DNA of 64,000 bases, from the NCBI GenBank assembly GCA_013214575.1, contig JABSSD010000134.1, forward strand, positions 24,199 through 88,198, in the 5' to 3' direction. This document shows positions 43,424 to 50,955 of this stretch, piece after piece. The notes beneath the pieces are model-generated. The model was not told where the DNA came from and did no database searches. It saw nothing but the letters and a program-made list of their open reading frames with translations. The position numbers and the translations under genes were made by a program. The stretch is from Paracoccaceae bacterium (GTDB lineage Bacteria > Pseudomonadota > Alphaproteobacteria > Rhodobacterales > Rhodobacteraceae). Within the stretch, counting starts at the first letter, position 1, and every line of letters starts with the position of its first letter.

Positions 43424-44008
43424 TTACCGTTTCCGGTCGCGGCGCGCACTCATCGGCTGGAAGGCAACGCCAACATGGGCTTCGCAATAGGGCTTGCCCT
43501 GTTGTACGGTCAGGCCACAGAACCAGAAATCCTCGGTTGCGGGATCGCCAACCGGCCATTTGCAGGTGCGCTCGGTCAGATCCATCAGCGACAGGCGCTT
43601 TGCCTTCTTCTCGATCTCGTTGACCTTGGCCAGCGCCTCGGGGCTGATTTCATTGGCCGAGGGCTGCGGTGGCAGCGGCTGTCCGGCCGGAATGATCTGC
43701 TTGCGCACCGGCAGATTGGGCCTGCTGTCGGCGGATTTGGGCTGAGCAGGCGGGATCGGGCGGGCGGGCTCGGTCTTGGGCTGCGCCTTGGGCTTGACGG
43801 CGGGCTTGGCCACGACCGCCGGCTTTTCCTTGGGCTCGGCTGATTTGGCAGCGCCAGTGGAATTGCGGTTGGACAGGCCCAACCGGTGCACCTTGCCGAT
43901 CACCGCGTTCCGGGTGACACCGCCAAGTTCTTTGGCGATCTGGCTGGCCGACTGACCCTCGCCCCACATTTTCTTGAGCAATTCAACGCGCTCGTCTGTC
44001 CAGGACAT
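43424..44008 (-). CDS. GcrA family cell cycle regulator
   Basis: MSWTDERVELLKKMWGEGQSASQIAKELGGVTRNAVIGKVHRLGLSNR; C-terminal CKWPVGDPATEDFWFCGLTVQQGKPYCEAH. Confidence 0.95.
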   Translation of the reverse strand: MSWTDERVELLKKMWGEGQSASQIAKELGGVTRNAVIGKVHRLGLSNRNSTGAAKSAEPKEKPAVVAKPAVKPKAQPKTEPARPIPPAQPKSADSRPNLPVRKQIIPAGQPLPPQPSANEISPEALAKVNEIEKKAKRLSLMDLTERTCKWPVGDPATEDFWFCGLTVQQGKPYCEAHVGVAFQPMSARRDRKR

Positions 44009-44167
44009 ATCTTGCCTTTCCAAGCTAAAAGCGGCCCCAAGAAACCTGCGGCCGCCATAGTATTCTATATTGGTGCCTATTCTAGTCACTGCGCCGCGAG
44101 ATACAAGCCATCTTGCACCTGACGGCTCAGGGGTTATGCAGGCCGGACACAGCAACTGGAGGTAGCT

Positions 44168-45977: not shown

Positions 45978-46271
45978 CAGCGGATCCTTTGGGCGGCGGT
46001 TCGGGATCGGCACCGGGGCCCTGCCATATTGACCGGTGGGGCTGCGCAAAAAGGCTTTCCTTTCCCAATAACTTCCGATATGTGCTGCCGTTATGATCAA
46101 ACGCGCCTATATCACCCCGCCGACCATGGCCCTGCGACGCCGACGCTAATTTAGCGTTTCGGCCCCTTGATCCCTGCGCTTTTATCTCTGCGCAAACCTT
46201 ATCAACATCGTTGACCAACAGCCCAGCCTCATGCATTTCTTGGGCTTCTATTTCCGAAAAGGATGATCCTG

Positions 46272-47459
46272 ATGATCGCTTCCGTTCTGCCAACCTATAA
46301 CCGCGCCCCTTTGAACTTTGTCAAAGGCGAAGGTGCCTGGCTGATCGAGGCGGACGGCCGACGTTTTCTGGATCTTGGTGCCGGTATTGCGGTGAATGTG
46401 TTGGGTCATGCCCACCCGGCTCTGGTCGCGGCGCTTACCGAGCAGGCGCAAAATCTGTGGCATGTGTCAAACCTCTACCAGATCCCGCAGCAACAGGCGC
46501 TGGCCGACAGGCTGGTCGAACATACTTTTGCCGACACCGTGTTCTTCACCAACTCGGGCACCGAGGCCTGCGAACTGGCGGTGAAAATGGCGCGCAAATA
46601 CTTCTTCGACAAAGGCGAAGAGCAGCGGATCGAGATCCTCACATTTGACGGCTCTTTCCATGGCCGCTCGTCGGCCGGCATCGCCGCCGCTGGCTCCGAG
46701 AAAATGGTCAAGGGTTTCGGCCCGGTGCTGCCAGGTTTTGTGCATCTGACCTTTGGCGATCTCGACGGCGTTAGCAATGCGATCACCGACCAGACGGCGG
46801 CGATCATGATCGAACCTATTCAGGGCGAGGGCGGTATCCGCGCGGTTCCCGACGCGGAAATGAAGGCGCTGCGGGCGCTCTGTGACGACCATGGCCTGCT
46901 GCTGATCCTCGACGAGGTGCAATGCGGGGTCGGCCGGACCGGCAAGCTGTTTGCTCATGAATGGGCGGGTATCACCCCGGATATTATGATGGTCGCCAAA
47001 GGCATCGGCGGCGGCTTTCCTCTGGGTGCGGTGCTGGCCACCGAACAGGCCGCCTCTGGCATGACCACCGGCACCCATGGCTCCACCTTTGGCGGCAACC
47101 CGCTGGGCTGCGCGGTTGGCTGTGCGGTGATGGACCATGTCACTGACCCAGAATTTCTGGAGGAGGTGAATCGCAAGGCAGGGCTGCTGCGGCAAAAGCT
47201 CGAAGGTCTGATCGACGGCCACCCGGAGGTTTTTGGTTCGGTGCGCGGCTCTGGCCTGATGCTGGGTCTCAAATGCAAGCTGCCCAATATTGACGTAGTC
47301 AATGCGGGCTATGACAATCTGGTCATCACCGTCCCTGCCGCCGACAATGTTATCCGGCTGTTGCCGCCGCTCACCCTCAGCGACGATGACATCGCAGAGG
47401 CGGTGATCCGCCTCGACAAGGTGGCAACCCAGCTCTCAGGCCAGCTTACAGCCGCTTGA
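46272..47459 (+). CDS. argD: acetylornithine/succinyldiaminopimelate aminotransferase
   Basis: [95 protein letters not shown]. Confidence 0.95.
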
Positions 47460-47535: not shown

Positions 47536-48462
47536 ATGAATCATTTCCTAGACATCCATAAGACAAACCCTGATGAGCTGCGCTGCATGATCGACCAGGC
47601 CAGTGCGATGAAACAGGCCCGTCTGACCCGCCCCAAGGGCGCGCCGGACGATGATCAACCGCTGGCGGGCCGCATGGTGGCGCTGATCTTTGAGAAACCC
47701 TCAACCCGGACCCGGGTGTCGTTTGATGTTGGCGTGCGCCAGATGGGCGGCCAGTCGATGGTGCTGTCGGGCAGTGACATGCAGCTGGGCCATGGCGAAA
47801 CCATCGCCGACACCGCCCGGGTGCTGTCGCGCTATGTGGATATGATCATGATCCGTACCTTTGACGAGACGGTGCTGATGGAGATGGCTGAATACGCCTC
47901 GGTGCCGGTGATCAACGGCTTGACCGACCGCACCCACCCTTGCCAAATCATGGCGGATATCCTGACCTTTGAGGAACATCGTGGCCCGATCCGGGGCAAA
48001 AAAGTAGTCTGGGCCGGCGACGGTAACAACGTCTGTGCCTCATTCCTGCATGCCGCCGGACAATTTGGCTTTGACCTGACCTTTACCGGCCCGGCCCAGC
48101 TGGATCCCGAGGATGAATTTATCGGCCTGGCCCGCAAGGCGGGCTCGAAGGTGGTGATCGAACGCGATGCGCGCAAAGCCGTCGAAGGGGCTGATCTGGT
48201 AGTGGCTGATACCTGGGTGTCGATGCACGACAGCCAATCCTCCAAGGAACGCCGCCACAACATGCTGCGCGGCTACCAGATCAACACCGAGCTGATGCGC
48301 CACGCCAAGCCGGACGCGCTGTTCATGCACTGTCTGCCCGCCCACCGCGAAGAAGAAGTTACCTCCGAGGTGATGGACGGTCCACAGTCGGTGATCTTTG
48401 ACGAGGCCGAAAACCGCCTGCACGCGCAGAAGGCCATCATGCGCTGGTGCCTGGAGGTCTAA
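47536..48462 (+). CDS. argF: ornithine carbamoyltransferase
   Basis: [54 protein letters not shown]. Confidence 0.96.
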
Positions 48463-48474
48463 GGCGGCTTTGCG

Positions 48475-49380
48475 ATGACCGAGCCAAAATTGCTGCTGCG
48501 GCCCATGCAGGGGGACTATGCGGTCTCTCGGGTCTCGCCTGACAATGGGGTACCAGACTGGGCCAGTGGGTCCGGTCTGGTGACGGTAACCCAGGCCGAG
48601 GATGAGATTTCGGTTCTTTGCCTCAGCCAGCGGGTGCCGCCCCAGGTCGAGCAGTCCGCAGGCTGGACCGCTGTGCAGGTCAGCAATCTGTTTGATTTTG
48701 ACCAACCAGGCGTGGTTCTGGCGGCAGCCCGGCCAGTGTCAGAGGCCGGGTTGGGCATATTTGTGGTCTCAACCTTTTACCGGGATTATCTTCTGATCCA
48801 GCACCGCAGCCTGCGCCGGGCTGAACTGGCCTGGCTTCAGGCCGGACACAGGGTTCAGGCACAGAGCCTGTTGCTGCGCCGCGCGACCCCCGAAGATTGC
48901 GATCGGATTGCCGAGTTCCATGTGCGGATGTGGCGCCAAACATATCGCGACATGGCGCCGGACGCAGCGATTCGGGCGTTGGATTTTGGCCGCCGTCAGG
49001 CCCAGTGGCGCGCCAGGCTTGCGGGTAGTCGGCATCACGCCCTGACCCTGTTGGCGCAGGATGATCAGGGCCAGATCCTTGGCCTTTGTGATCTGGCAAG
49101 ATCCGAGATCGCGGCCTTCCCCGAGGCGATGGAATTGACCAATTTATACGTCGACACTGCGGTCAGCGGGCTTGGCATGGGGCGTCATTTTCTGCGTCTG
49201 GCGCAGCATTGGGCGCAGCGTTCCGGACGATCGGACCTGGTGCTGGCTGTAGTGCGGCAAAACGATGCTGCGCTTGGCTTTTACCGCGCTTGCGGTGGTG
49301 ACCCGGTGGCGACAAGCCTCGATAAAGGGCCGCTGTGGCGCTCAGAGAATGTCATCATGCGCTGGCCTTCGGCGCTGTGA
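48475..49380 (+). CDS. ACT-like domain / GNAT N-acetyltransferase fusion
   Basis: N-term LRPMQGDYAVSRVSPDNGVPDWASGSGLVTVTQAEDEISVLCLSQRVP...GIFVVSTFYRDYLLI resembles COG3603-type ACT domains; C-term LRRATPEDCDRIAEFHVRMWRQTYRD...LTNLYVDTAVSGLGMGRHFL...NDAALGFYRACGG is GNAT. Confidence 0.85.
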   Translation: MTEPKLLLRPMQGDYAVSRVSPDNGVPDWASGSGLVTVTQAEDEISVLCLSQRVPPQVEQSAGWTAVQVSNLFDFDQPGVVLAAARPVSEAGLGIFVVSTFYRDYLLIQHRSLRRAELAWLQAGHRVQAQSLLLRRATPEDCDRIAEFHVRMWRQTYRDMAPDAAIRALDFGRRQAQWRARLAGSRHHALTLLAQDDQGQILGLCDLARSEIAAFPEAMELTNLYVDTAVSGLGMGRHFLRLAQHWAQRSGRSDLVLAVVRQNDAALGFYRACGGDPVATSLDKGPLWRSENVIMRWPSAL

Positions 49381-49461: not shown

Positions 49462-50955
49462 TTATCCGACCAGGGTGGTGAGCAGCAGGTAGATGCCTGC
49501 GGACATCACGGCAGCGGCGGGCACGGTGATGACCCAGGCGGCAAGGATGGTCATGAAGTGACTGCGACGCACCAGTTTGCGACGGCGGCGCTCTTCCGGG
49601 GCGAGGGCTTTCTTCTGGGGCCGCTTGGCCGAGGAGTTGCGCAACCGCCGCTCCATATGCCATTCGCGGAAGAATCCGACGCCAAAGACCGCGCCAACGG
49701 CGATATGGGTCGATGAGACAGGCAAGCCCATCCCGCTGGCGACAATCACCGTGATCGCGGCCGATAGGGACACGCAAAAGGCGCGCATCGGGTTCAGTTT
49801 GGTGATCTGGCTGCCCACCATGCGGATCAGCTTGGGGCCGAACAGGAACAAGCCAAACGAGATCCCCATTGCGCCGATCACCATCACCCAGGTTGGGATC
49901 ACCACCTTGGCGGCAAAATCACCAAATTCGGTGGCATGCACGATGGCGGCCAGGGGGCCCACCGCATTGGCCACGTCATTGGCGCCATGGGCAAAGGACA
50001 GCAGCGCGGCAGAGATCACCAGCGGCAGCCGGAACAGCACCTTGAGCGACTTGTTGCGGTTCTCCATGCCCTGTGACTGGCGCCGGATCAGCGGCAGGGT
50101 GATAGCATAAGACAGTGCCCCGATGGCGGCGCCAATGATCAATGCATCCTGCATGTCGATCTTGATCACCCGCTTTAGACCCTTCAGGGCCAGATAGGCC
50201 GAGAACACGCCCGCCATCACCCCGACCAGGATCGGCACCCAGCGGCGGGCGGCGGCAATCTTGTCGTCCTGATAGATAACGCGGGATTTGATCAGCGCCA
50301 GAAACAGCGCCGCAACAATGCCGCCCAGCACCGGTGAGATCACCCAGCTGGCGGCAATCTTGCCCATGGTTGGCCAGTTCACCACGGCCAGGCCGGCGGC
50401 GGCTATGCCCGCCCCCATGACGCCGCCAACCACCGAGTGGGTGGTGGAGACCGGAGCGCCCAGCCAGGTCGCCAGATTGACCCATAAAGCCGCAGAGATC
50501 AGCGCCGCCATCATCGCCCAGATAAAGATATCGGCGCTGCCGTCGGCGCTGGTCATGATGCTGGGGTCAATGATCCCCTTAGAGATCGTCGACACCACAT
50601 CGCCGCCGGCCAGCAAGGCGCCGGCGCTTTCGGCAATGGCCGCAATCAGGATGGCGCCGCCCATGGTCAGCGCATTGGCTCCCACCGCCGGCCCCATGTT
50701 GTTGGCCACGTCATTGGCGCCGATGTTGACCGCCATATAGGCGCCAAAGGCCGCTGCTGCGACCACCACATAATTGATCGGCGTGGTGCCCAGAAGAACG
50801 GCGGCAGCCAGGCCTGCCAGCACGATAAAGACCAGCGCAATGCCCGGACCGACCATTGGTCTTGAGACATAGCCGGTGGCATTTTCAAGAATCGCGATCC
50901 GGTTTAGATCGCGATCAAGTGTCTTCCATTGTCTGCGCTGTGGTTCGTCGGTCAT
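49462..50955 (-). CDS. inorganic phosphate transporter (PiT family)
   Basis: NIGANDVANNMGPAVGANALTM; GAPVSTTHSVVGGVMGAG; SFAHGANDVANAVGPLAAI; GLPVSSTHIAVGAVFGVGF. Confidence 0.95.
   Translation of the reverse strand: MTDEPQRRQWKTLDRDLNRIAILENATGYVSRPMVGPGIALVFIVLAGLAAAVLLGTTPINYVVVAAAAFGAYMAVNIGANDVANNMGPAVGANALTMGGAILIAAIAESAGALLAGGDVVSTISKGIIDPSIMTSADGSADIFIWAMMAALISAALWVNLATWLGAPVSTTHSVVGGVMGAGIAAAGLAVVNWPTMGKIAASWVISPVLGGIVAALFLALIKSRVIYQDDKIAAARRWVPILVGVMAGVFSAYLALKGLKRVIKIDMQDALIIGAAIGALSYAITLPLIRRQSQGMENRNKSLKVLFRLPLVISAALLSFAHGANDVANAVGPLAAIVHATEFGDFAAKVVIPTWVMVIGAMGISFGLFLFGPKLIRMVGSQITKLNPMRAFCVSLSAAITVIVASGMGLPVSSTHIAVGAVFGVGFFREWHMERRLRNSSAKRPQKKALAPEERRRRKLVRRSHFMTILAAWVITVPAAAVMSAGIYLLLTTLVG

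Follow-up and report, generated by a model that had tools for sequence, protein, structure and literature searches.

The gene that follows argD and argF at this locus of a marine bacterium raises the question of what an acetyltransferase joined to an ACT domain does at the end of a run of arginine genes. An earlier note had placed this fusion gene 12 nt after argF, with argD-argF upstream; within the window (the whole 64,000-nucleotide stretch of DNA that was analysed), the argF end, the ORF start and curated NCBIfam models for both arginine genes agree with that description (Table 1). The gap between argF and the fusion is short (about 10-30 nt) in every carrier, and the fusion is probably the final gene of an arginine operon, co-transcribed with argDF. 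The convergent gene downstream encodes a PHO4-family transporter, a frequent argF neighbour in relatives that lack the fusion. A GcrA-like cell-cycle regulator N-terminus (MSWTDERVELLKKMWGEGQSASQIAKELGG) was also spotted by eye in the window, at 43424-44155 on the minus strand. Our best reading, held with a little less than even confidence, is that the fusion is a lineage-restricted accessory enzyme, an amino-acid-gated acetyltransferase.

Table 1. Features of the argD-argF-fusion locus, in window coordinates.
Feature	Position	Strand	Basis
argD, acetylornithine aminotransferase	46263..47459	+	NCBIfam PRK01278 623 bits, TIGR00707 448 bits, over cut-off
argF, ornithine carbamoyltransferase	47536..48462	+	NCBIfam TIGR00658 378 bits (cut-off 281), PRK00779
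argF-to-fusion spacer, 12 nt	48463..48474	+	too short for a terminator
ACT-GNAT fusion gene, 301 aa, ATG start	48475..49380	+	ORF list, Pfam, PDB match, alignment
A9CJY8-like_N domain, aa 13-55, first half of Atu0741-type ACT unit	48511..48639	+	PF21631 E 5e-13
ACT_7 domain, aa 63-116	48661..48822	+	PF13840 E 2e-10
DQPGVV, aa 76-81 (D76-V81), fits canonical ACT DxPGx[LV] ligand-loop motif	48700..48717	+	sequence and alignment
STFYRD, aa 99-104, aligned to CASTOR1 S299-D304	48769..48786	+	alignment; generic to ACT_7
GNAT acetyltransferase domain, aa 131-297	48865..49365	+	PF00583; profile versus PDB 1wk4 E 5e-26, PaiA 1tiq E 9e-18
Acetyl-CoA pyrophosphate loop, SGLGMG, aa 231-236	49165..49182	+	alignment A3; R-G-x-G-x-G in most homologues
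GPLW, aa 285-288, near-invariant in GNAT subfamily; probable acceptor-side loop	49327..49338	+	alignment A3
PHO4-family phosphate transporter, convergent	49462..50955	-	PF01384

All three Pfam matches in the fusion (PF21631, PF13840 and PF00583) exceed their curated cut-offs. The N-terminal ~127 aa carry A9CJY8-like_N followed by ACT_7 within about 125 aa, the arrangement of an Atu0741-type ACT unit, and aa 4-127 match the structure of Atu0741 itself (PDB 1zhv, E 3e-28, phmmer versus PDB), in agreement with the claim that the first ~120 aa are of ACT type. Atu0741 (A9CJY8) resembles the entire N-terminal half of the fusion but is free-standing, without a GNAT. The DxPGxL loop is the amino-acid contact of ACT domains (PMC6434083), and the fusion motif, DQPGVV, has V where this consensus has L. 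Across nine fusions aligned end to end, G13, W29, G32, D43, E44, W64, D76, P78, S99, T100 and D104 are invariant. We found no known function or ligand for the Atu0741/ACT_7 family in the literature. A structure predicted from two sequences was too poor to use (mean pLDDT 44), and no argument here rests on it.

The assignment of the C-terminal ~170 aa to the GNAT superfamily likewise holds: Acetyltransf_1 (PF00583) matches aa 175-274 (E 1e-8) and 1wk4 matches aa 134-276 (E 7e-13, phmmer versus PDB). The curated PF00583 score is accompanied by an acetyl-CoA loop and by Tyr and Asn residues of catalytic type, with S in place of R at the first position of the pyrophosphate loop in the window copy. 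H149, W153, Y157, R174, W178, E220, N263, Y270 and G285-W288 are invariant across the nine aligned fusions; these residues (the last four forming GPLW), together with S290 and W297, are invariant or near-invariant across the GNAT subfamily (alignment A3). The closest PDB relatives of this half are a Thermus thermophilus acetyltransferase (1wk4/2cy2) and the polyamine acetyltransferase PaiA (1tiq), both of which, unlike the fusion, are without an ACT domain. The PaiA model NF053587 scored 24 bits against a cut-off of 250, and none of the curated NCBIfam function models reached its cut-off on the fusion GNAT, which gave weak matches to many detoxifying GNAT families. The conserved, compact pocket would favour a small-molecule acceptor.

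Full-length fusions occur in 4 of 199 genomes of one Rhodobacterales-type family, each representing a different genus and the window's genus among them; within the window's genus, five of eight genomes carry the full-length gene. Among the relatives with a name is Parasedimentitalea denitrificans CY04 (L066), which makes Parasedimentitalea the very probable genus of the window. In samples of 386 class and 399 phylum genomes, the members from outside the family yielded matches only to separate ACT or GNAT proteins. Plasmid-borne spread was considered and rejected, with no full-length copy among 72,556 plasmids.

Every fusion found sits in an arginine cluster, either directly behind argD-argF (the window's genus, G038 and G074) or, in genus g32, behind an argC that itself follows argF (argC by TIGR01851, 370 bits, cut-off 230). 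The gene after argF varies among 18 fusion-free relatives and includes PHO4, a ketopantoate-reductase-like gene and others. All carriers fall inside one fully supported clade of the argD+argF tree, which also includes non-carriers; the fusions group into one clade by their GNAT halves (support 85/98), and their ACT halves lie on one side of a modestly supported branch (66/88). Forcing carriers into an exclusive clade was rejected (p-AU 4e-48), as expected if the non-carriers within the clade represent losses. The simplest account is one fusion event behind argF, followed by vertical inheritance and several losses. Adjacency to argF (or to argF-argC) is thus conserved in every carrier found, though by one ancestral insertion, and because the carriers lie in a single clade this is weaker evidence than independent repeats would be. 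The notion that argF adjacency was repeatedly selected is weakened for the same reason.

The losses can be seen among congeners. G203, whose argF is 98% identical to that of the window, retains only fragments of the fusion gene, G205 has none of it, and in G204 the GNAT is intact but the ACT half is almost entirely gone; the gene is therefore dispensable, and the GNAT may work ungated. An isochorismatase-family hydrolase gene follows the fusion position in some congeners (L156:7480-8697 in G204, L108:883-1452 in G205). Where the fusion is kept, purifying selection acts on each half (comparisons of congeners give dN/dS of about 0.1-0.2, range 0.12-0.20), and a chance ORF is rejected by this ratio and by the domain matches. 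Between the two main fusion lineages, where dS is near saturation and only identities are relied on, the ACT half is 54-64% identical and the GNAT half 40-44%. This higher conservation argues that the ACT half has a specific role.

These patterns bear on the alternative that the protein is a small-amine or xenobiotic N-acetyltransferase with no arginine regulation, its ACT unit serving only stability or dimerisation and its operon position being an accident of one insertion. A single origin with repeated loss speaks for this alternative, which is also consistent with the persistence of the GNAT without ACT in G204, with the weak matches to detoxifying families and with the free GNAT relatives, for which a common neighbourhood was sought and only unrelated contexts were found. 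However, it leaves the better conservation of the ACT half and the retention of its DxPG motif to be explained, and the linkage has outlasted both neighbour turnover and the insertion of argC. Moreover, ACT-less GNAT relatives lie directly behind argF in two further genera (G139 and G097), and the GNAT tree does not show them as sister to the fusions. We regard this alternative as rather unlikely, but as one to keep in view.

Under the preferred reading of an amino-acid-gated acetyltransferase, the fusion would be translated as a third cistron after argD and argF. Its Atu0741-type ACT unit, probably dimeric, would bind an amino acid or a close metabolite, and binding would in turn adjust GNAT activity. 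The most likely reaction of the GNAT, given its PaiA/TTHA-like pocket, would be acetylation of a small amine by acetyl-CoA rather than synthesis of the N-acetylglutamate of the pathway. Joint expression with argDF would suggest a link between arginine or ornithine metabolism and either the ligand or the acceptor. Ligand binding, gating and the nature of ligand and acceptor are all steps that we infer.

Arginine itself is a candidate ligand in view of the earlier comparison with the eukaryotic sensor CASTOR1. The ACT_7 stretch at aa 64-110 aligns with the last ACT unit of CASTOR1 and CASTOR2 (E about 1e-3 and 2.5e-5), such that D76, V80, S99-T100-F101 and D104 correspond to D276, I280, S299-T300-F301 and D304 of CASTOR1. 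The D304A substitution abolishes arginine binding by CASTOR1, yet CASTOR2 has the equivalent residue and does not bind arginine (PMC5187391). D104 is conserved in the fusions but is generic to ACT_7, and the STFxxD motif is also found in CASTOR2; an arginine pocket argued from the D304 equivalent was therefore rejected as non-specific. The CASTOR1 pocket lies between two ACT pairs of a single chain, with S111/V112 supplied by the other pair (PMC5187391), whereas the fusion has one ACT pair and the partner face would require a dimer. Because the motif is general in ACT_7, CASTOR2 is a non-binder and the CASTOR1 pocket requires a second ACT pair, the CASTOR likeness is a lead rather than evidence for arginine, and it gives no specific support to a CASTOR1-like arginine sensor. 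That this bacterial CASTOR-superfamily unit senses arginine (or ornithine) for an operon-encoded acetyltransferase is doubtful; if true, it would be a previously undescribed output of arginine sensing and the first ligand assigned to the Atu0741 family.

A gated enzyme might instead act on proteins. In the actinobacterial AAPatA enzymes (SvePatA and AmiPatA), Cys or Asn gates an ACT-GNAT acetyltransferase (PMC6434083), and the fusion could be an analogue, an amino-acid-gated lysine or N-terminal acetyltransferase of Acs, ArgF/ArgD or other proteins. It shares with AAPatA the ACT-then-GNAT order and the DxPGx[LV] motif, but its ACT family is different (ACT_7/A9CJY8 versus classical ACT templates), as is its phylum. 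The near-invariant aromatic and Arg residues of the pocket and the kinship with PaiA and 1wk4 favour a small acceptor, and neither a deacetylase gene nor acs lies nearby. Protein acetylation is, on balance, improbable.

The earlier note had also raised feedback-controlled synthesis at the first step of the pathway, in which the fusion would be an auxiliary N-acetylglutamate synthase (NAGS) that acetylates glutamate, senses arginine through its ACT unit and replenishes the ArgJ cycle. Its place behind argDF/argC would suit such a role, as would the lack of an ArgA-type NAGS in carriers (TIGR01890 matches ArgB alone, as the kinase half); the invariant R174 could bind a carboxylate, and atypical short GNAT-type NAGSs exist (PMC4490483). 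Against this, no NAGS family reaches its cut-off on the fusion (the best, NF049894, gives 13.6 bits versus 280). ArgJ, which when bifunctional can supply N-acetylglutamate, is present in 14 of 14 genomes examined, all carriers included, and ArgB, at 288 aa, belongs to the long type, for which arginine feedback is already known. Near relatives without the fusion keep the same argDF genes (G203, G205, G077, G194, G044 and G005). The fusion-free G203, G139 and G097 contain ArgJ but not ArgA, so their first step can proceed without the fusion. The proposal is weakened on these grounds, and we consider even an auxiliary role improbable.

Some free-standing copies of the ACT gene hint at amino acids more broadly. 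On plasmids of Burkholderia ambifaria (L163:3483-3863) and Paraburkholderia graminis (L164:3483-3866), it comes last, behind hutH and the genes of a histidine-type ABC transporter, which suggests a histidine-linked role for the orphan Atu0741 family. A genome from a class other than that of the window has genes for an ArgP regulator and a LysE/ArgO exporter at one locus with a free ACT gene (L117:2-1887), and in an alphaproteobacterium a free ACT gene directly follows an unrelated GNAT gene at a distance of about 14 nt, the two being paired but unfused (L116:1498-2377). Most free copies are without amino-acid-specific neighbours; these contexts suggest amino-acid-linked roles, possibly with various ligands. 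Among free GNAT relatives, two have as neighbours a LysR gene and a gene of argininosuccinate-lyase type (L168:3492-6488, with full-length argH; L115:1408-3504, with a partial Lyase_1 match). Other loosely related GNATs, noticed post hoc, occur near argC in G761 and L087 and two genes from argH in Burkholderia; GNATs are numerous.

What stands of the proposed amino-acid-sensing acetyltransferase are its domains, its arginine linkage, the DQPGVV motif and the AAPatA precedent (PMC6434083); arginine specificity of the CASTOR1 kind lacks support and a NAGS role is weakened, while gating by an amino acid is plausible from architecture and precedent. The fusion resembles AAPatA in joining an N-terminal ACT domain, with its DxPGx[LV] motif, to a C-terminal GNAT. 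It differs from that family, which has actinobacterial hosts and an ACT domain modelled on classical templates (3W7B, 3O1L, 1PSD and 2J0X), whereas the fusion is alphaproteobacterial, has a PaiA/1wk4-like GNAT, sits in an arginine operon and carries an ACT unit of the Atu0741/ACT_7 type. As ACT-GNAT fusions are already known, what is new here is the different ACT family. This family is widespread and has a solved structure, and its fusion to an enzyme of measurable activity in an arginine operon means that its ligand can be assayed directly. Should that ligand be arginine or ornithine, bacterial relatives of CASTOR would be tied to amino-acid sensing, and ACT-gated acetylation would extend past the actinobacteria.
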